A stretch of 64,000 bases of DNA from Clostridium sp. BNL1100 (GTDB lineage: Bacteria; Bacillota; Clostridia; Acetivibrionales; DSM-1351). The stretch spans positions 3,415,001 through 3,479,000 of the forward strand of contig NC_016791.1 in NCBI RefSeq assembly GCF_000244875.1. Direction: 5' to 3'. A program made the translations under genes and the position numbers. Positions 2,522 through 64,000 of this stretch are shown in pieces (the first letter of the stretch is position 1; the number at the start of each line of letters is the position of its first letter). Below the pieces are notes generated by a model, which was not told the origin of the DNA, made no database searches, and was given only the letters and a program-made list of their open reading frames with translations.

Positions 2522-3841
2522 ATGAGTTTGTATGAAAATATATTAAGCCGTAAAGAAAAAATAGCGGTAATAGGCCTTGGGTATGTGGGATTACCTCTTG
2601 CTATCGCATTTTCCAAAAGAGCCTCTGTCATAGGTTACGACATAAGTAATGAAAAAATAGAGCTGTATAATAAAGGTATAGATCCAACCAAGGAAGTAGG
2701 AGACTATGCAATAAAAAATTCTACTGTGGAATTTACGTCGGATGAAACACGGCTTAAAGAAGCAGGATTTTTTATTATCTCGGTACCCACACCTGTTAAA
2801 TCAGACCATACTCCTAATCTGAATCCCGTGGAACTGGCAAGCTGCATTGTGGGCAGAAATCTTGCCAAAGGGTCAATTGTTGTATATGAGTCGACTGTGT
2901 ATCCGGGCGTTACCGAGGAAATCTGCATACCCATACTGGAAAAGGAGTCAGGTATGAAATGCGGAGAAGATTTTAAGGTAGGCTATTCTCCTGAAAGAAT
3001 AAATCCGGGTGACAAGCAGCACAGGCTTGAAAATATAATAAAAGTTGTATCTGGTATAGATGCTGATGCACTTGATACAATCGCTAAGGTATATGCAATG
3101 GTTATAAAGGCAGGGGTATATCCTGCCGATTCAATTAAAGTCGCAGAGGCAGCAAAGGTTATAGAAAACTCACAGCGTGATATTAATATTGCATTTATGA
3201 ACGAAATTGCAATGGTTTTTAATAAAATGAATATTAATACCAAGTCGGTACTTGAAGCAGCCGGAACAAAGTGGAATTTTCTCAAGTTTTCCCCCGGATT
3301 GGTTGGAGGGCACTGTATAGGTGTTGATCCGTATTATTTTACCTATAAGGCTGAGCAATTGGGGTATCATTCTCAAATTATCCTATCGGGCAGAAGAATT
3401 AATGATGTTATGGGGAAATACATTGTTGAGAATCTTATAAAAAACATGATTACGGCCGATTTATCGGTTAAAAACTCCAAAATTGCAATACTTGGATTCA
3501 CTTTTAAAGAAAATTGTCCTGATACCCGCAATACAAGGGTTATAGATATAGTGGAAAGCCTCGGTGAATATGGTATTGTGCCCGTTATTTCTGACCCCGA
3601 AGCTGATGCTTTGGAAGCGAAGCAGGAGTACGGTGTTGATTTGACACCTATTGACGACATCAGAGGTATGGATGCAGTAGTTTTAGCCGTTAGCCATAAT
3701 TCGTTTCTAAAGCTATCAAAGGCCGATTTTGATAAGATGTTTAAGACTGATACAAAAGAAAGCAAAGTCATCATTGACGTTAAAGGTGCATTAAACAAAG
3801 ATGAATTTGTTAATCCTGAGTACATTTATTGGAGTCTGTAA
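2522..3841 (+). CDS. UDP-sugar 6-dehydrogenase, TviB/WbpO type
   Basis: This 439-residue nucleotide-sugar dehydrogenase oxidises C6 of a UDP-hexose (likely UDP-GlcNAc/GalNAc, or UDP-Glc) to the uronic acid with two NAD+. The Rossmann motif VIGLGYVGLPLA is at residue ~16, the linker VYESTVYPG follows, and the catalytic Cys265 sits in GGHCIGVDPYYF. The C-terminal UDP-binding half has GFTFKENCPDTRNT. Together these fit the UDP-N-acetylhexosamine dehydrogenase branch better than Ugd. An AAGGATGA ribosome site precedes the ATG. No glycan cluster surrounds it; its nearest possible partner is rfbB 22 kb away. The substrate assignment is inference. Confidence 0.85.
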   Translation: MSLYENILSRKEKIAVIGLGYVGLPLAIAFSKRASVIGYDISNEKIELYNKGIDPTKEVGDYAIKNSTVEFTSDETRLKEAGFFIISVPTPVKSDHTPNLNPVELASCIVGRNLAKGSIVVYESTVYPGVTEEICIPILEKESGMKCGEDFKVGYSPERINPGDKQHRLENIIKVVSGIDADALDTIAKVYAMVIKAGVYPADSIKVAEAAKVIENSQRDINIAFMNEIAMVFNKMNINTKSVLEAAGTKWNFLKFSPGLVGGHCIGVDPYYFTYKAEQLGYHSQIILSGRRINDVMGKYIVENLIKNMITADLSVKNSKIAILGFTFKENCPDTRNTRVIDIVESLGEYGIVPVISDPEADALEAKQEYGVDLTPIDDIRGMDAVVLAVSHNSFLKLSKADFDKMFKTDTKESKVIIDVKGALNKDEFVNPEYIYWSL

Positions 3842-3855
3842 ATAAATAAACAGCT

Positions 3856-3884
3856 AAGCCATTCTATAAGAAATGGCTTTTGTT
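3856..3884 (+). terminator. Terminator after the UDP-sugar dehydrogenase
   Basis: AAGCCATT and AATGGCTT form an 8-bp stem with an 8-base loop, followed by TTGTTTT. It begins 15 bases after the stop codon. Confidence 0.8.
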
Positions 3885-3948
3885 TTGCGCCAATCATGTT
3901 AAATAACAGACAATTTATGTTATATTGTCATATTAATGTAATATCTGT

Positions 3949-3977
3949 TTGAAAGTGGATGAGATGTAGAGTATAAT
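3949..3977 (+). promoter_or_regulatory. Promoter of the dockerin-CotH gene
   Basis: TTGAAA, a 17-base spacer and TATAAT form a near-consensus vegetative promoter. It is about 400 bases upstream of the CotH start codon, and no closer promoter of equal quality is apparent, which implies a long 5' leader. Confidence 0.6.
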
Positions 3978-4381
3978 TGTAATCGTATTAAAATATTTTT
4001 TTAAAAGTATTTTTATAAGCAGTACTGAACCTTGAAAAATCAATATTTCAAAAGAAATATATACGTTACACGGCCTGGTTGACGTCAAAAAATTGTATTT
4101 TAAGCAAATCTTAAAAATATTCATTTGCAAGCATTTTAATTGTGTTTTACGATAATTCATTGATAATCAAATCATTCTTAATACCCCCGAAAATTCTATT
4201 TCCCTCATAAAGTTTCAATAATCCTGCTGAAATCTTTTTTAGACTTACCAAGGCTTTTTTGTTTCACCTACTTATGTTATATGCAACTACTTAAAGTGGA
4301 CTCTACAGAGTTATTCTAGCGGTTTCTTAAAATAACCGCTGATTTTAATGTTTATCCAAATTATTTATAGGAGGTATTTTT
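3978..4381 (+). other. Long untranslated leader of the dockerin-CotH gene
   Basis: About 400 AT-rich bases separate the promoter from the AGGAGG ribosome site at 4369-4374. I see no gene here on either strand. A stem-loop (AGCGGTT paired with AACCGCT, 4318-4340) lies 42 bases before the start codon. Long structured leaders are known for cellulosome genes of related clostridia; whether this one regulates or stabilises the mRNA is inference. Confidence 0.45.
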
Positions 4382-6247
4382 ATGAAAAAAAGTCGTTTGC
4401 TAATTTTGTCAGCATTTTTTGCACTCTTTATTGTACTATTGCCTATGACAAATATTAGCGCAGCTACAATGTATGGAGACCTGAATTCGGATGGTTCAAT
4501 AGATTCTATAGACTATTCCATTATGAAAGGTTACCTTTTTGGCAGTATAACTATAAGTAATCCTACAGCAGCCGATGTAAATGGAGACGGTAACATAGAT
4601 GCAATCGATTTATCATTAATGAAACAATATATTCTGCACATTATTACTAAGTTTCCGGCAGATAATACTACAACGCCAGTAGATAATTCTCCTGCAGCTC
4701 AATTGACCGGAGATATCCTTTTCTCTGTACCAAGCAGTACTTTCAGCAACCAGGTCTCAGTGTCATTGAGCTCAAAAGTTGCTAACTCTCAAATCCGTTA
4801 TACTACCGACGGAAGTGTTCCTACAGCAAGTTCTCCTTTATACAGCAGTCCTTTGTCGTTTACCAAGACAACACAGTTGAGAGCTCAATCCTTTGTAAAT
4901 GGAGCTGTAAGCGGTAATATGGGTACTGCAATCTATGTTGCAAGTGCTATAAATTCAAAGCATGATCTCCCTGTATTGATTCTGGATGCCTACGGCGGTG
5001 GAAAACCGGCTCGTGACTACAAAGACGTTGCCGTTATGCTCATGGAGCCGCAGAACAACGAAGCTTCATTATTACAAACCCCTACAGTTGCCACTCGCGC
5101 AGGTTTTCATGTACGTGGTCAGTCCTCTGCTAATTTCGAAAAGACTCCTTATCGTCTTGAATTGTGGGATAACAAAAACGATGATGCAAAGTATCCCCTG
5201 TTAGGTATGCCGGGGGACGGCGACTGGGCATTGCTCTCACCTTTCCCCGATAAATCTCTTATAAGAAATGCTCTTGCTTATGAATTAGGAGCCAGTATGG
5301 GATTGAAAGCACCAAGATACAGATTTGTTGAAGTATACCTGAATCTTGATAATCAACCGTTATCCTCCGCAGATTACCAGGGTGTATATCTGCTGACAGA
5401 AACACTGGAAATTGACAAGGATCGTGTCAATATTAAAAAACTCAAGGACGACGACCTTACAGAACCGAATATTACCGGCGGTTACTTGATGCAGTTCAAC
5501 ATGATGGCAACTGACGGACCATTGGTAAAAGGATCAGGCTGGAACGATCTTGAGATAACAGATCCTGATGATTTGTTGCCTGAACAGTTGACTTGGATAA
5601 GCAACTATATTCAAAAGGTACATAATTCTATTCGCAGTACTAATCCTTCTGACCCAACCACCGGATATCCTGCTTATATCGACGTTGATTCCTTCATAAA
5701 TTACATTATTGGAAATGAAATTGCCCGTGAAGGCGACTCATACATGCGCAGTACCTACATATATAAGGATCGTGGTGCAAAACTGGCAGCAGGCCCACTT
5801 TGGGATTATGATCTGGGCTATAATTGCGTAACCGGTATGATGGGTATGCCGACAAACTATGTAGAAGGCTGGCAGTTCCAGCCAATGTATGGAATGAGTT
5901 CTACTTGTGACTGGTACTACAAGCTTATGCAGGACCCTACTTTCCAAAGCAAGATCAGTGCACGCTGGCAGGAATTACGTAGCGGACCTCTTTCTGATAC
6001 ACAGATAAAAGCATTGGTTCAAAAGCTGACAACACCTTTAACAAACGGCGCTAAACGTAATTTCCAGAAGTGGAACAACTTGGGCACCGCAAATGTGGGT
6101 GGTTTCAGTACACAAACAACACAGACCTGGGAAGAGCAAATAACAATTTTACAGAACTTTCTGCTCCAAAGGGCTGCCTGGTTGGATAAATCCGGATGGA
6201 AACCAACTACAAGCACTAATCCCGGATGGCCCGGTTGGGGTGGTTAA
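4382..6247 (+). CDS. Secreted dockerin-CotH kinase-fold protein (cellulosomal)
   Basis: This is a 621-residue exported protein. Residues 1-28 are a signal peptide (MKKSRLLILSAFF start, ISAA cleavage region). Residues 30-94 form a type I dockerin: two Ca-binding repeats with DLNSDGSIDSIDYSIMKGYL and DVNGDGNIDAIDLSLMKQYI, which should bind scaffoldin cohesins. Residues ~112-190 resemble a chitobiase C-terminal-type beta domain (IRYTTDGSVPT). Residues ~198-600 are a CotH domain with HVRGQSSANFEKTPYRLELW, GVYLLTETLEIDKDRVNIKKL and LWDYDLGYN. CotH proteins are atypical protein kinases in spore coats; dockerin-bearing CotH proteins place the fold in cellulosomes, where their substrate is unclear. 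The dockerin is N-terminal, the less usual position. The protein ends in a Gly/Trp/Pro tail. It is monocistronic, with promoter and terminator. Confidence 0.92.
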   Translation: MKKSRLLILSAFFALFIVLLPMTNISAATMYGDLNSDGSIDSIDYSIMKGYLFGSITISNPTAADVNGDGNIDAIDLSLMKQYILHIITKFPADNTTTPVDNSPAAQLTGDILFSVPSSTFSNQVSVSLSSKVANSQIRYTTDGSVPTASSPLYSSPLSFTKTTQLRAQSFVNGAVSGNMGTAIYVASAINSKHDLPVLILDAYGGGKPARDYKDVAVMLMEPQNNEASLLQTPTVATRAGFHVRGQSSANFEKTPYRLELWDNKNDDAKYPLLGMPGDGDWALLSPFPDKSLIRNALAYELGASMGLKAPRYRFVEVYLNLDNQPLSSADYQGVYLLTETLEIDKDRVNIKKLKDDDLTEPNITGGYLMQFNMMATDGPLVKGSGWNDLEITDPDDLLPEQLTWISNYIQKVHNSIRSTNPSDPTTGYPAYIDVDSFINYIIGNEIAREGDSYMRSTYIYKDRGAKLAAGPLWDYDLGYNCVTGMMGMPTNYVEGWQFQPMYGMSSTCDWYYKLMQDPTFQSKISARWQELRSGPLSDTQIKALVQKLTTPLTNGAKRNFQKWNNLGTANVGGFSTQTTQTWEEQITILQNFLLQRAAWLDKSGWKPTTSTNPGWPGWGG

Positions 6248-6385
6248 TCTAGGAAACCATGAAGCCATATAATATCCTCCTCTTGGGCGGGATAATACAT
6301 GCATTCTAAAGCCAAAAGCGGAGGATTCCTTTCAAAGAAAACTGTAGTAACTACTTTGAGTAGCAATTTGGCATATATATTAAAA

Positions 6386-59177: not shown

Positions 59178-59576
59178 CTACTTGTCTAGTGACTTTTTGA
59201 GAGCCATAACTTTTTCTTCTATAATTTTAATCACTTTAATAAATTCTTTATCGTTTTTTCCGGTTGGGTCTTCCAGACCCCAATCTTCTCTGTGTTTGCA
59301 CGGCAAAGACGGACACTGCACGTTGCACCCCATTGTTATCACAATGTCAACGGTTGGTATATCTTGAAGAAGCTTTGATTTTTGTGTTTTCTCCATATCA
59401 ATTCCATAAATCTGTTTCATCAACCGGACAGCATCCTTGTTAATTTGAGGCTTTGTTTCAGTGCCTGCGGAATAACTCTCAAATACATCCGAAGCAAGAT
59501 GTCTGCCTAATGCTTCTGCAATCTGACTACGGCAGGAATTATGAACACATATAAATGCTACTTTAGCTTTACCCAT
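59178..59576 (-). CDS. arsC: Arsenate reductase, thioredoxin-coupled LMW-PTP type
   Basis: This 132-residue protein has a CX5R loop (Cys10 to Arg16 in CVHNSCR). The redox cysteines of ArsC lie in MGCNVQCPSLPCKHREDWGLED, quoted here in part, and DPTGK carries the general acid Asp. It reduces arsenate to arsenite using thioredoxin. It is the last gene of the arsR operon and starts one base after the small thioredoxin gene ends, a direct hint that the latter is its reductant. Confidence 0.92.
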   Translation of the reverse strand: MGKAKVAFICVHNSCRSQIAEALGRHLASDVFESYSAGTETKPQINKDAVRLMKQIYGIDMEKTQKSKLLQDIPTVDIVITMGCNVQCPSLPCKHREDWGLEDPTGKNDKEFIKVIKIIEEKVMALKKSLDK

Positions 59577-59577
59577 T

Positions 59578-59880
59578 TTACTGCTTCCTTACTTTCTCTA
59601 ATATACTAATTACTTCTTCAGTTTTCAAGACTTTACCGTATGAAACAACTTTGCCGTCTACAACCAAGGCAGGTGTTGTCATTACACCATATGCAGCAAT
59701 CTGTGCAAAATCCTTAACGTGCTCAATAGAAGTGTCCATTCCCAGCTTTGACAATGCTTCTTTTGTAGCAGCTTCCAGCTGATTGCATTTTGCACATCCC
59801 GAACCAAGCACCTTTACATATGCATCACCTTTAATGCCTGTTTCACTTAAATCTTCCTTCTTCTTTTTAAAAAATGGCAT
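59578..59880 (-). CDS. Small thioredoxin-like disulfide protein
   Basis: This 100-residue thioredoxin_3-type protein has CxxC Cys29-Ala-Lys-Cys32 in GSGCAKCNQLEAATKEAL and the cis-Pro motif TTPALVVDGKVV. A lysine-rich N-terminus (MPFFKKKKEDL) precedes the fold. Family members are often encoded with UPF0718 permeases and ArsR regulators. It probably reduces ArsC or the permease (inference). Confidence 0.9.
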   Translation of the reverse strand: MPFFKKKKEDLSETGIKGDAYVKVLGSGCAKCNQLEAATKEALSKLGMDTSIEHVKDFAQIAAYGVMTTPALVVDGKVVSYGKVLKTEEVISILEKVRKQ

Positions 59881-59906
59881 AATAAAATCCTCCTGATAAG
59901 TTTATT

Positions 59907-60920
59907 TTATAATAATAAATATTGAAATGCATTAAACAGATATCCAACAATAATAATACCTATCGTACAAATTGCAACAAATAATGCCAAAAGCCTTGGT
60001 TTTAAAGCCTTACGAAGCATAATGACAGATGGTAAACTGAGTGTTGTTACCGCCATCATGAATGACAGAACAGTTCCTAAATTTGCTCCTTTATACAGTA
60101 ACGCTTCTGCAACGGGTATAGTACCAAAAATGTCTGCATACATAGGAACCCCAATTAACGTAGCAAGTACTACACCAAACGGATTATTACTACCCAGAAT
60201 GGTTTCAATCCAGCTTTCAGGAATCCAGTTATGAATTACTGCACCGATTCCTACGCCTATTAATATATATGGAAATACTTTTTTAAAGGTTGCTGCTACT
60301 TGGTCTTTTGCATATGTAATACGTTCTTTTTTTGTTAAATTCGGTGACTCAATATCCATGCCTGAGGCATTTAGTATAATATCCTCTACATACTTATCCA
60401 TATTCATTTTCCCAATAATTGTACCGCCTGCAACTGCAATTATAAGACCAACTATAACATAAACAACAGCTACCTTTGCACCAAAAATGCTCATTAAGAT
60501 TACTAATGAACCAAGGTCTACCATAGGAGAAGAGATTAGAAATGAGAAAGTTAATCCTAGCGGCAATCCTGCACTGGTAAACCCAATAAAAAGCGGAATG
60601 GACGAACAGGAGCAAAAAGGCGTAACAGTTCCTAAAAGTGCCGCTATAGTATTTGCCCCGATTCCACGAAAACGTGTCAATATTTTCTTACTCCGTTCCG
60701 GCGGAAAATAGCTTTGAATATAGGTAATTATAAAAATAAGAAGACATAGTAATATTGTAATTTTTATTACATCGTATATAAAAAACTGAATACTACCTCC
60801 AAGCCTTCCTGACATATCAAGGCCAAAGAATGAAAGTAAATTTTGTGTAAGTATGTTAAGCCATTTCATTCCAAGCACCTGATTCTGCAAAAACAGGCCT
60901 ATTCCTTTGAAAACCTCCAT
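59907..60920 (-). CDS. UPF0718/ArsP-like permease
   Basis: This 337-residue membrane protein has eight to ten helices. Family motifs are GTVTPFCSCSSIPLFIGFTSAGLPLG (~residues 94-119; the C-S-C-S cysteines are typical), VDLGSLVILMS and GVPMYADIFGTIPVAEALL. ArsP, the methylarsenite/organoarsenical exporter, belongs to this family. Since no ArsB or Acr3 is encoded here, this is the probable arsenical exporter of the operon. A GGAG site precedes the ATG. Confidence 0.86.
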   Translation of the reverse strand: MEVFKGIGLFLQNQVLGMKWLNILTQNLLSFFGLDMSGRLGGSIQFFIYDVIKITILLCLLIFIITYIQSYFPPERSKKILTRFRGIGANTIAALLGTVTPFCSCSSIPLFIGFTSAGLPLGLTFSFLISSPMVDLGSLVILMSIFGAKVAVVYVIVGLIIAVAGGTIIGKMNMDKYVEDIILNASGMDIESPNLTKKERITYAKDQVAATFKKVFPYILIGVGIGAVIHNWIPESWIETILGSNNPFGVVLATLIGVPMYADIFGTIPVAEALLYKGANLGTVLSFMMAVTTLSLPSVIMLRKALKPRLLALFVAICTIGIIIVGYLFNAFQYLLL

Positions 60921-60939
60921 ACATATCTCCTTTTCATTA

Positions 60940-60963
60940 ATATATCTATTTTTATCGATATAT
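60940..60963. promoter_or_regulatory. Second ArsR operator, between arsR and the permease
   Basis: ATATATC and GATATAT arms with a 10-base spacer. It shares the ATATC-N10-GATAT pattern of the site at the arsR promoter. Confidence 0.65.
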
Positions 60964-60981
60964 CAATTTTTAATAAAGCCA

Positions 60982-61278
60982 TCACCCGATGGCCGTATAT
61001 ATTTCTGTAATTTTACCAAGCAGTTCTCTAGCATAGGCACTGCCATCTTCGCTTATAGAATAGTGAGTCCATTTTCCTTCTTTTCTTGCATTTACAACAC
61101 CCGAATCACATAATATTTTCATATGATGAGACAAAGTGGACTGACCAATTTTTAAATCCTCCAGCAGTTTGCAAGCGCATTTTTCACCTGTCTGGAGCAA
61201 TTCCAGAATCATAAGGCGATTTTCATCACAAAAGGCCTTAAATACTCTTGCATTTTCTTCGTGTTCACTGATTGACAC
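60982..61278 (-). CDS. arsR: ArsR-family metalloregulatory repressor
   Basis: This 98-residue winged-helix repressor has a DNA-recognition helix IGQSTLSHHMKILCDSGVV. Candidate arsenite ligands are Cys34 and Cys36 in EKCACKLLE (the ELCVCDL position of classical ArsR) and possibly Cys17. Arsenite binding should release it from the ATATC-N10-GATAT operators. It is first gene of the operon with the permease, thioredoxin and arsC. A short AGGTGATAAAGTG leader with a ribosome site precedes the ATG. Confidence 0.93.
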   Translation of the reverse strand: MSISEHEENARVFKAFCDENRLMILELLQTGEKCACKLLEDLKIGQSTLSHHMKILCDSGVVNARKEGKWTHYSISEDGSAYARELLGKITEIYTAIG

Positions 61279-61344: not shown

Positions 61345-61574
61345 TGTATAAACCGCTCACCTTTTCCCTTTGTATATCTAAATTAATACTATAATATCTT
61401 TATATTAATGTAAATAATACCCAGTACTTATTTTACAATTTATACCATGTTAACTTGTTTTTTACATATTTTTGTAGTAAAATGTTATATAGTTATTCTT
61501 GGCAGATATGTTAATAAAACCAAATTTTAAATGTATTTATCGTCTATTTTTAAAAGCGTAGGAGGTTAAACTGT
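61345..61574. other. Intergenic region upstream of the RiPP precursor
   Basis: About 230 AT-rich bases lie between the divergent arsR and RiPP promoters. No coding frame or known RNA motif was seen, and no certain promoter for the peptide gene could be fixed. Confidence 0.35.
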
Positions 61575-61757
61575 ATGAAAGATATTCAATTATCAAAAAA
61601 TGAAGTTAAAGAATTATTAAGAAATGGCTACGGCCTTTCTCAGAAAAAAGAAGTTGGTACAACGTCAGGCACTATAGTGGCAATGGTGGATTCGTCGGTA
61701 GTTATTGAACCACAATACCCTCCCATTAGTCCTGTAGTATGTGTAGTAGTAGTTTAG
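61575..61757 (+). CDS. Candidate RiPP precursor peptide
   Basis: This 60-residue peptide starts behind a strong TAGGAGG site. The N-terminal half is helical and charged (LSKNEVKELLRNGYGL), like a leader. The C-terminal half is hydrophobic with Thr29, Thr30, Ser31, Thr33, Ser40, Ser41, Ser52 and one Cys56 in an all-valine setting (PVVCVVVV at the C-terminus). It has no signal peptide or clear Gly-Gly site. A radical SAM gene and a LanM gene follow, so it is probably their substrate: LanM would dehydrate Ser/Thr and could join one to Cys56. It resembles no lantibiotic I know. Whether it is the only precursor is unknown. Confidence 0.65.
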   Translation: MKDIQLSKNEVKELLRNGYGLSQKKEVGTTSGTIVAMVDSSVVIEPQYPPISPVVCVVVV

Positions 61758-61810
61758 AATAAATTTTTAAAAGATGCTTTAAATATCTGCCATTTTTTTA
61801 TAATCCCAAT

Positions 61811-61834
61811 AGAATAAACCTAGGAGTTTATTCT
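61811..61834 (+). other. Stem-loop between precursor and radical SAM genes
   Basis: AGAATAAAC and GTTTATTCT form a 9-bp perfect stem with loop CTAGGA and no T-run. It could partly stop or stabilise the precursor mRNA, the usual way to make more peptide than enzyme. Confidence 0.5.
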
Positions 61835-61898
61835 GTTATCTTATAAATTTTCTATTTTTTTGTAACAAAAAATATTTAATGAAAGTAGGATGTTTTCC

Positions 61899-62882
61899 AT
61901 GCTACAAAAATCTTTAAGTTTGATTATTACCAAAAAATGTACAGCTGATTGTGACATCTGTTGTTTTTCCTGCTCACCTCACGTTGAGGATAAAATGCCG
62001 TTGGAAGATGCACTCAATTATATTGATCAAGCTTCCCAAATCCAACAATTTACTGCTGTGGGAATTTCAGGCGGTGAGCCTTTTCTATATTATAATGATC
62101 TTATAGAAATTTTGAAAAGATGCAAATCTTTAAATTTAGGCTTTTCATGTTCTACCAATAGTTTTTGGGCAGCTACAATCGATAATACCAGATTATTTCT
62201 TAAGCAGCTAACTGATATTGGCTCTCTTACGTTAAATTTAAGTATTGATGAATTTCATTCTAAATATATACCCTTTCAAAATATAAAAAATGTTCTTAAA
62301 GTCGCAAAGGAGTTTTCTAATCTGTCTATTTTATTGGGTTGTGTTTGTACAAAAACAAGTAAAAAGTTACACGATATACTTGAATATTTAGGAGATGATA
62401 TTATGGGTTATTATATAGCCTCATCTCCATGTTTACCTGTTGGTAATGCAGAAACCCGCATTAAACCGGAAGATTTATTCATATTTGAAAATTCAATAGA
62501 CAAAAAGTGTTCCGGCTTATCCCACTTGGTTGTTATGCCGGACGGAAGTACTTACCCTTGCTGTTACCAGGGCGGCTTCACTCCTGCATTATATTTAGGT
62601 TCCGCAAAGGAGTTGCCTTTAACTGAAATAATAAAGAATTTTAACGGAAATATGTATTGTAGAACACTTGAAAACCATGGAGTTAAGTGGTTCGTTGATA
62701 AAATACATGAAAATAATCTGCCAATTAAACTTAAAAACGGAGGATATGTAGGCATTTGCGATGTTTGCCATACCTTATTTCATGACCCTGAATATTTAAA
62801 ATATTATGAGCCGTTTTTAGATATAGAAATGTATAACATCATACAAAGAGAGTTGGAAAAAGACGCTGTCATGGGAGGTTAA
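61899..62882 (+). CDS. Radical SAM enzyme with SPASM-like C-terminus
   Basis: This ~327-residue enzyme has the radical SAM CX3CX2C motif in KKCTADCDICC (residues ~12-22 from the second Met). SAM-binding GISGGEPFLYY follows (~52). The C-terminus has extra Cys in KKCSG, YPCCYQGG, MYCRT and GICDVC, a SPASM/twitch-like pattern for auxiliary clusters. Enzymes of this kind modify RiPP precursors (thioether or C-C links, epimerisation). I chose ATG 61899 over 61890 because GTAGGA is correctly spaced. The GGGAGG site for the next gene lies in its last codons. The modification made cannot be told from sequence. Confidence 0.87.
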   Translation: MLQKSLSLIITKKCTADCDICCFSCSPHVEDKMPLEDALNYIDQASQIQQFTAVGISGGEPFLYYNDLIEILKRCKSLNLGFSCSTNSFWAATIDNTRLFLKQLTDIGSLTLNLSIDEFHSKYIPFQNIKNVLKVAKEFSNLSILLGCVCTKTSKKLHDILEYLGDDIMGYYIASSPCLPVGNAETRIKPEDLFIFENSIDKKCSGLSHLVVMPDGSTYPCCYQGGFTPALYLGSAKELPLTEIIKNFNGNMYCRTLENHGVKWFVDKIHENNLPIKLKNGGYVGICDVCHTLFHDPEYLKYYEPFLDIEMYNIIQRELEKDAVMGG

Positions 62883-63395
62883 ATGGACACATACAACCAG
62901 TATCAATACATATATGCACTAACAACTAAGGAAAGAGTTGAAGCATTTTTAAATGCAAACATGGATGTTTCTGAGGACCCGATAATAATCGAAGAAAAGT
63001 GGTTCAATGTAAAAAGTCTGGTAGGAAAGGACTCATTGGATAAAAAACTTGATTATATGGGTATAACTTATGACCAGTTTGCTTTCTCCATTAAAGATTT
63101 CAATAGTTTTGAATCCGACATTCTATACGATTATCTTAAGGAAAGCAAATGGTATAAAAAATATCAGGAAATTATGCTGGACTTCGGCAATTCATATAAA
63201 TCCGAAAACGTCGTCAACGAACAATTGATACTTCCATTTATAAGATACATAGAAAAAACTATATCTGGTAAAACTTTTAAAAACTTGCAGATTGATGCGG
63301 GTGTATTAATTACTTTTAGTCCAGAGTATTGCAATTCAATTAAACAAGATTACATGGAAATGCTTAATCATAGAAATGGGAGAATACAAAAATAA
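62883..63395 (+). CDS. LanM lanthipeptide synthetase, N-terminal piece
   Basis: This 170-residue frame starts directly at the stop of the radical SAM gene behind GGGAGG. It reads like the beginning of a LanM: a helical region with KWFNVKSLVGKDSLDKKL, KWYKKYQEIMLDFG, and then LPFIRYIEKTISGKTFKNL where LanM proteins have their P-F-x-x segment. It stops at 63393-63395 in an A-rich stretch. The continuation lies in the +1 frame (next feature). This is either a frameshifted LanM or a split enzyme. Alone it lacks the dehydratase active site. Confidence 0.7.
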   Translation: MDTYNQYQYIYALTTKERVEAFLNANMDVSEDPIIIEEKWFNVKSLVGKDSLDKKLDYMGITYDQFAFSIKDFNSFESDILYDYLKESKWYKKYQEIMLDFGNSYKSENVVNEQLILPFIRYIEKTISGKTFKNLQIDAGVLITFSPEYCNSIKQDYMEMLNHRNGRIQK

Positions 63396-64000
63396 AAACT
63401 CATTAAATGGTGAGGATGGAAACTCCAGATATCTTGACTTTCTTAATAAAAATTACAAGACCCCTGACCAAATAGAAGAATTTTATTGTAAGTATCCTGT
63501 ACTGGCAAGATTAATAGTACAGAAAATGCTTGATCTGACTCTGGAAACAGAGCGAATGTTAGATAATATAGATTTAAATTTTCAAAGTATCAGCAATACT
63601 CTAAAACTGAAAAGTGCTCATATTACAGAAATCCACGGTTCACAGGGTGATACCCATAAAAGGGGTAAATCTGTTGCAAAGCTGGTTCTTGATAATGGAC
63701 AGGTTTTTATTTATAAACCACGCAACTCTGATATTGAAAGAGCCTTCAACAAATTTGTCCAGTATATTAATGAAAACAGCAATTTAATGGATTTATACAT
63801 TAACAAAGTGTATTATGCAAAGGATTTTACTGTTGAAAGTTATATAGAGACCGAACCCTGCTATACGCTTGACGAGGTAAAGGAATTCTACTACAGGTTT
63901 GGTGAAATGCTTGCATTAACAAGCCTTCTTCAGGGTACTGATTTTCATAGTGAAAACGTAATAGCTTTTAATAAATATCCTGTTATTGTTGACTTTGAAA
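63376..64000 (+). CDS. LanM lanthipeptide synthetase, dehydratase part, cut by window edge
   Basis: This frame is open to the right edge (208 codons). It continues the LanM N-terminus: YCKYPVLARLIVQ (where LanMs have the YPVLARL motif), then HGSQGDTHKRGKSVAKL and VFIYKPRNSDIERAF (kinase-like dehydratase core with GD-x-H-x-x-G and YKPR). Near the edge it reads LQGTDFHSENVIAFNKYPVIVDFE (TDxHxEN and the DxE metal site). These match the DUF4135 dehydratase domain; the LanC cyclase half would lie beyond the window. ATG 63376 overlaps the previous stop by 20 bases and has no upstream ribosome site, so separate translation is doubtful. Confidence 0.85.
   Translation, partial: MGEYKNKNSLNGEDGNSRYLDFLNKNYKTPDQIEEFYCKYPVLARLIVQKMLDLTLETERMLDNIDLNFQSISNTLKLKSAHITEIHGSQGDTHKRGKSVAKLVLDNGQVFIYKPRNSDIERAFNKFVQYINENSNLMDLYINKVYYAKDFTVESYIETEPCYTLDEVKEFYYRFGEMLALTSLLQGTDFHSENVIAFNKYPVIVDFE

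Follow-up and report, generated by a model that had tools for sequence, protein, structure and literature searches.

Pathways that combine a LanM-type enzyme with a radical S-adenosylmethionine (rSAM) epimerase are already known. Landornamide is reportedly one more such case, and is said to have a LanM part and a proteusin (NHLP) leader. Carnazolamide, a dehydrazole, is described as the product of a PoyD homologue that works with a LanM-like dehydratase and azole machinery (PMC10676384). Lanthipeptide clusters with radical SAM genes are on record, and some of the most frequent tailoring enzymes in class II lanthipeptide clusters are reported to be NAD(P)H-FMN reductases, including LanJB, which turns dehydro residues into D-residues (PMC7268733) and is reported to reduce both dehydroalanine (Dha) and dehydrobutyrine (Dhb) (PMC11519912). 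In the epipeptides (YydF), D-residues arise through EpeE (YydG), for which abstraction of the C-alpha hydrogen of Val and Ile and a probable hydrogen return from Cys223 are described (PMC8326336). Here we analyze a locus of Clostridium sp. BNL1100 that joins an EpeE-like enzyme to a LanM/LanJB route in one operon and would thus bring together two routes to D-amino acids. The window, the whole 64,000-nucleotide stretch that was analyzed, spans bases 3415001-3479000 of a genome assembled as one contig (4,613,747 bases), and its right flank was taken from the same genome.

Five genes lie on the + strand in the order P1, rSAM, LanM, LanJB, P2, and this operon is present in two copies in the genome. 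Right-flank positions are given as L005 coordinates (window position minus 60000), and L006 is the stretch that holds copy B. The features of copy A, and their counterparts where noted, are as follows.

61561..61565, + strand: GGAGG, the Shine-Dalgarno-like site of P1, read from the sequence
61575..61757, + strand: P1-A, a 60-amino-acid precursor-like peptide with a leader of about residues 1-23 and a Val/Ile-rich tail with one Cys (second copy at L006:6156-6329)
61890..62882, + strand: EpeE/YydG-like radical SAM enzyme of 330 amino acids, a probable peptide epimerase from family and PDB sequence matches, with an open frame in copy A
62883..63395, + strand: LanM 5' piece of 170 amino acids, in a frame different from the remainder in copy A (the intact 1018-amino-acid LanM is at L006:7019-10075)
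63376..64000 and on to L005:5940, 1,940 bases past the window end, + strand: LanM 3' piece with the DUF4135 start, from Pfam matches
L005:5964-6689, + strand: LanJB-like NAD(P)H-FMN reductase of 241 amino acids (Pfam PF03358)
L005:6756-6941, + strand: P2-A, a second precursor of 61 amino acids with its own GGAGG site, a leader of class-II-like type, and a tail rich in Ser, Thr, and Cys

This layout bears out the sequence-only reading of the window, which had noticed a 60-residue leader-like peptide, a CX3CX2C radical SAM enzyme, and a DUF4135-type LanM start in tandem on one strand. Sharing of an operon by LanM, a peptide-modifying rSAM enzyme, and a leader/core peptide also stands; the proposed joint action on one precursor fares less well, given the presence of P2 and a P1-B that lacks Cys. 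A terminator-like hairpin follows P2-A (z -4.4; 0/200 shuffles equally stable). A hairpin in the P1-rSAM interval was considered as an attenuator and rejected, with z -1.3 in copy A (22/200 shuffles as good) and z +0.3 in copy B (121/200). As an observation apart, an inverted 9-mer (GGCAGATAT / ATATCTGCC) brackets P1 in both copies (window 61501-61509 and 61783-61791; L006:6082-6090 and 6352-6360).

The rSAM enzyme carries a radical SAM domain (PF04055, E 1.8e-11) and a SPASM domain (PF13186, E 2.8e-5), with its CX3CX2C motif at C17/C21/C24. Among NCBIfam models it fits the peptide epimerase YydG best (205.4 bits, E 1.4e-60), and all three of the PDB sequences below E 1e-5 are YydG/EpeE chains (best 1.9e-44, a match by sequence). 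With an assumed chain offset of 25 residues, C207/C224/C225 align to C206/C222/C223 of EpeE, so that C225 faces the proposed hydrogen donor C223; the broad EpeE-like signature, CX3CX2C plus a donor cysteine, is therefore present, as is the C-terminal ICxVC of the alignment. A tree of 38 rows, 36 of them different, pairs the enzyme with one from Clostridium tunisiense (44% identity, support 100/98), apart from the Bacillus EpeE branch. It thus resembles EpeE/YydG in rSAM family, CX3CX2C motif, and further and donor cysteines, with Val/Ile-type targets expected, and differs in being only ∼30% identical to the Bacillus enzymes, on a separate branch and below the equivalog cut-off. By homology it is an epimerase-like enzyme on a branch of its own, and it probably inverts peptide residues to the D-form. 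The crosslinking alternative of the sequence-only reading, with its shift of -2 Da, has to be given up: as the enzyme is EpeE/YydG-like, D-residues are expected rather than crosslinks, and the expected signature is a mass-neutral inversion seen only by D2O or chiral analysis. A crosslinking enzyme of the sactipeptide/ranthipeptide type was likewise rejected among the best 25 of 38 families, where YydG (1.4e-60) is followed by HxsC (3e-10) and the crosslinkers are weaker (WgkB, 6.9e-7; PapB, 1.2e-4).

The second half of the operon resembles that of a class II lanthipeptide. The LanC domain that the sequence-only reading looked for beyond position 64000 is there, since the LanM 3' piece of copy A matches both DUF4135 (E 1e-91) and LANC_like (E 7.5e-43). 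Against TIGR03897 (cut-off 304 bits), LanM scores 606 bits in copy B and 581.4 bits for the copy A 3' piece, which places it in class II. LanM of copy B aligns to CylM residues 38-1017 and keeps the DxH, Arg/Thr, and Zn-ligand positions of CylM in this alignment. The adjoining reductase (PF03358, E 4.4e-19, 69 bits versus a cut-off of 24) qualifies as LanJB by family and neighbor together and is a probable dehydroamino-acid reductase of that type, judged by homology; its top PDB relative is SP1951. The P2-A leader weakly matches the Mersacidin family (PF16934, E 0.0066, 16.6 bits versus a cut-off of 27.6) and the lichenicidin-A2 family/SP_1948 model (TIGR03893, E 0.66, 10.4 bits versus a cut-off of 32.95); from their numbers, SP_1948 and SP1951 would appear to belong to one cluster. 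Each P2 core has two Cys, and Ser/Thr number 13 in one and 15 in the other. With these weak class-II-like leader matches and a Ser/Thr/Cys-rich core beside LanM and the reductase, P2 is the obvious LanM substrate. The sequence-only reading had held that classical lantibiotic precursors matched to LanM on the right flank would speak against a hybrid product, and P2 goes part of the way: it lies directly after the LanM-reductase pair, is class-II-like, and is well supplied with Ser/Thr besides its two Cys, and its family matches are subthreshold.

P1 differs from P2 in kind. Eight of codons 1-23 differ between copies A and B, six synonymously and two (codons 2 and 3) non-synonymously, so that all differences in codons 4-23 are synonymous; past codon 23, P1-A and P1-B are mostly dissimilar. 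A kept leader and a free core make P1 look like a ribosomal peptide precursor rather than a chance open reading frame (ORF), on two sequences only. The tails are rich in Val/Ile (14/37 residues in A, 13/34 in B) and poor in Ser/Thr (7 and 5, respectively). P1-A has one Cys and P1-B (57 amino acids) none, and therefore no lanthionine is possible on P1-B. By eye, P1 is unlike YydF, so that the YydF-type precursor of an epipeptide is lacking, and the P1 and P2 leaders show no likeness to each other. P1 had no Pfam or NCBIfam match above cut-off (one Pfam row at E 0.15), including none to class II precursor models, and neither P1 nor P2 matched a proteusin (NHLP/nitrile-hydratase-like) leader family in these databases. 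Membership of the proteusins is also not indicated by the rSAM enzyme, which matches EpeE (PoyD was compared by family search only, not directly). No real P1 homologue was found in 10 other genus genomes, where rows at E 0.036-0.087 sit within open frames of at least 438 amino acids, and the single plasmid match (E 2) is meaningless. A dispersed family of P1 cassettes was rejected, with good matches at two genome sites only and other rows at E 0.05-0.08 (2/4) and at E of at least 0.4 (29/31).

Two further features, the LanM frame split in copy A and the second operon copy, go beyond the sequence-only reading. Copy B, ∼225 kb from copy A, consists of P1-B, an rSAM gene cut to its last part (a 186-amino-acid ORF without CX3CX2C), the intact LanM, the reductase, and P2-B (64 amino acids). 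LanM of copy B, both reductases, and both P2 genes have open frames, and the reductase protein is identical between copies. A 4,314-base tract (L005 2564-6878) shows zero substitutions and one gap column between copies, and this gap puts LanM out of frame in copy A. To its left, 15 substitutions fall within L005 2320-2600. The tract begins within rSAM and ends within the P2 core. Its enzymes are identical along 4.3 kb, both precursor cores differ between copies, and in this the duplication amounts to a natural test of substrate tolerance. The pattern fits gene conversion, or an assembly unable to separate the repeats, and under either reading the actual partners of rSAM and LanM may be other than those assembled. 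Neither copy is complete as assembled, and therefore either the copy A rSAM and copy B LanM work in trans or the repeat phasing is wrong. Between the rSAM copies, codons 144-330 show 9 synonymous and 10 non-synonymous differences, 4 of the latter at the deletion junction (9 and 6 for codons 148-330), which suggests little constraint on one copy or on both. Left of copy B, an S8 peptidase (L006:1300-2700, - strand) seems by eye to be truncated and fused to a histidine-kinase-like C terminus.

We then compared the distribution of the two modules in other genomes. A genome-contig scan for rSAM relatives gave 102 loci; its best 80, with five earlier stretches, made up 85 loci that we probed for LanM, for the reductase, and for P1-A and P1-B (E ≤ 1); L005 and L006 were recovered as a positive control. 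LanM was found in 0/85 loci with EpeE-like rSAM relatives, though just 32 of the 80 loci reach at least 16.3 kb and the remainder are ended by contig ends, so that absence of LanM there is not proved. The same loci gave one reductase row (E 0.17) and one P1-B row (E 0.85). DUF4135 occurred anywhere in 3/21 of the genomes checked from among the 80 loci. One of these, Ruminiclostridium hungatei, comes closest to being a second case, with an EpeE-like rSAM and a LanM on the same contig; we rejected it as a relative, as its LanM has three tandem precursors of its own and the rSAM lies ∼13 kb off on the other strand. With few first-look candidates scored per genome, the rSAM enzyme was detected in 3/391 Clostridia genomes (E ≤ 1e-30) and LanM in 3/398 phylum genomes (E ≤ 1e-60), own genome included in both counts. 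Among 10 genus mates, rSAM relatives do not exceed 33% identity. Of 206 genomes in the C. tunisiense family, 2 have an rSAM match (E ≤ 1e-40), and the second of these (G857) shows no LanM in 1.5-kb flanks with two genes. P2 was found among 58 genomes of the order in the home genome plus one weak row (E 0.0097, two stops). LanM and reductase, without an rSAM match in the stretch covered, were seen together at L142 (G005, 18 kb covered, reductase 32% identity), L137 (G614, 5.2 kb, 34%), and L138 (G590, 5.7 kb, 32%). The LanM-reductase and rSAM modules thus each occur alone elsewhere, and their union is seen only in this genome among the loci examined.

In mobile elements, rSAM matched 5 plasmid records at 25-28% identity, pTA14 among them, and no viral contig, LanM matched 92 plasmid records (all <60% identity) and one phage (29%), and P2 matched no plasmid. 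A Rhizobium plasmid stretch, lacking annotation, was uninformative. Small ORFs with ribosome sites near the 25 best rSAM loci (L045-L069) were judged by eye, without a statistic. Four loci (L051, L053, L054, L064) have 49-amino-acid YydF-like ORFs beside Bacillus/Heyndrickxia rSAM genes, a positive control; another four (L052, L055, L057, L068) have Val/Ile-rich peptide ends, and the other 17 show nothing clear. These Val/Ile-rich ORFs weakly favor a pairing of P1 with the rSAM enzyme. Some neighborhoods of rSAM relatives are of separate interest. C. tunisiense has four tandem near-identical precursor-like ORFs of 46-52 amino acids where its contig stops (L045:12362-13315). The nearest relative of the window rSAM is 3.4 kb away from them, and the interval holds genes that by eye look B12-rSAM-like and M16-peptidase-like. 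At L043:6085-11785, - strand (G000 3545084-3550784), three tandem YydG-like rSAM genes lie amid rSAM-like genes (by eye) near a B12-rSAM-like gene, and genus mate G007 also has three matches.

Taken against the described systems, the locus seems to assemble known parts in an unusual way and is not a proven new peptide class. Like the clusters of bicereucin and carnolysin (PMC7268733, PMC11519912) and SP_1948/SP1951 of Streptococcus pneumoniae, as far as those accounts describe them, it has LanM, an NAD(P)H-FMN reductase, and a precursor leader that is class-II-like by weak matches; unlike them, its operon also includes P1, a second precursor unrelated to the first, and an EpeE-like rSAM. It departs from epipeptide loci in a P1 that is not YydF-like and in having LanM 3' of the rSAM gene. 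Titles and abstract openings in the literature searched, which left subscription journals largely outside, name no LanM cluster with an EpeE-type epimerase, and we saw LanM beside an EpeE-type rSAM in no other examined locus. The locus shares the union of LanM-type dehydratase and radical SAM epimerase with carnazolamide and, reportedly, landornamide, and differs from these PoyD-type, proteusin-leader systems by its EpeE-type enzyme and short leaders.

We lean toward separate pairing within the operon, with P1 serving the epimerase and P2 serving LanM and LanJB. The reactions, substrate pairing, and activity that follow are predictions from homology. In P2, Ser/Thr would be dehydrated by LanM and in part joined to the two Cys as (methyl)lanthionines; leftover Dha/Dhb would be converted to D-Ala/D-Abu by the flavin reductase. 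The rSAM enzyme would invert Val/Ile in the hydrophobic P1 tail by C-alpha hydrogen abstraction and hydrogen return from the conserved Cys. The outcome would be two peptides with D-amino acids, probably membrane-active, whose stereo-inversions come from two unrelated chemistries. Several points weigh against this picture. The operon lacks both a transporter gene and a protease gene; ABC genes and an S8 peptidase (PF00082, E 1.7e-50) further right may supply exporter and leader protease, though they are on the opposite strand and may belong to a neighboring cluster. The rSAM enzyme scores 205.4 bits where the TIGR04078 equivalog cut-off is 300. An Asp of EpeE, Ala in deposited chain 8ai6 (apparently a mutant made to test that residue), faces Ser211 or His212, so that one possibly catalytic residue is not kept. 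Both P2 family matches fall under curated cut-offs, and the LanM frame difference in copy A could be decay or sequence error. P1 is also kept in copy B although rSAM has lost its CX3CX2C half there, which means that P1 may have another enzyme or that copy B may be decaying.

A true hybrid, in which LanM (with LanJB) and the rSAM enzyme both act on P1, so that one peptide bears D-residues from dehydration and from radical chemistry and lanthionine forms only in P1-A, which has Cys, is possible and not needed, and we consider it unlikely. P1 does head the same operon, its cores hold Ser/Thr in both copies, in copy B P1 persists beside a LanM that is intact and an rSAM that is not, and joint LanM-type and epimerase action is reported for carnazolamide (PMC10676384). 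The separate LanM-type precursor P2, the dissimilar leaders, the Cys-free P1-B, and modules that stand alone elsewhere all argue the other way. A more elaborate version, in which P1 gains D-residues through both LanM/LanJB (at Ser/Thr) and the EpeE-type enzyme (at Val/Ile) and acts with P2 as a two-component agent, the broken copies complementing in trans, seems to us somewhat less probable still. Decay deserves about the same doubtful hearing as the simple hybrid: the copies, with one broken enzyme each, would be remnants of an acquired cluster whose product is no longer made. The out-of-frame LanM of A, the truncated rSAM of B, the little constraint on the rSAM copies, the seemingly truncated S8-peptidase fusion adjoining copy B, and the 10 genus mates without a close rSAM relative are all in keeping with it; the purely synonymous changes in P1 codons 4-23, the open frames of LanM of B, both reductases, and both P2 genes, and the strong hairpin after P2-A are not. 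We give very little credence to a role of the window rSAM, additional or principal, in the opposite-strand neighbor, a cluster with an alternating-Asn peptide. That cluster ends ∼140 bases from P2, none of its rSAM enzymes has YydG as best family match, and the Thermus aquaticus plasmid pTA14 has an EpeE-like rSAM, an SdpI-family gene, and a related methyltransferase by an alternating-Asn tail; however, the strand is opposite, the neighbor owns an rSAM/SPASM and a B12-rSAM enzyme, and the window rSAM lies directly 3' of P1.

The neighbor is itself a second cluster resembling those of ribosomally synthesized and post-translationally modified peptides, placed tail-to-tail on the - strand right of the window (L005:7078-17357 and L146:2709-4010). 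It encodes an ABC exporter, a PrmC/HemK-like methyltransferase, a PqqD-like protein, an rSAM/SPASM enzyme, a B12-binding rSAM enzyme, more ABC-like genes and a 99-amino-acid membrane protein (both by eye), and the S8 peptidase. Its precursor-like ORF (55 amino acids, L005:8780-8947) has Asn at every second tail residue, and the alternating Asn and amide-type methyltransferase bring polytheonamide-like channel peptides to mind. Of 391 class genomes, one besides its own has a match to the methyltransferase (E ≤ 1e-25). This cluster may be a more striking lead than the LanM operon. On the other side of P1, window 59178-61278 (- strand) holds an arsenic-type gene set by eye (ArsR-like regulator, permease, thioredoxin-like, and arsenate-reductase-like genes). 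On pTA14 (L150 ∼2599-6074), the EpeE-like rSAM, SdpI-family, and methyltransferase genes adjoin the gene of an annotated hypothetical protein that has a tail with a long alternating-Asn stretch.

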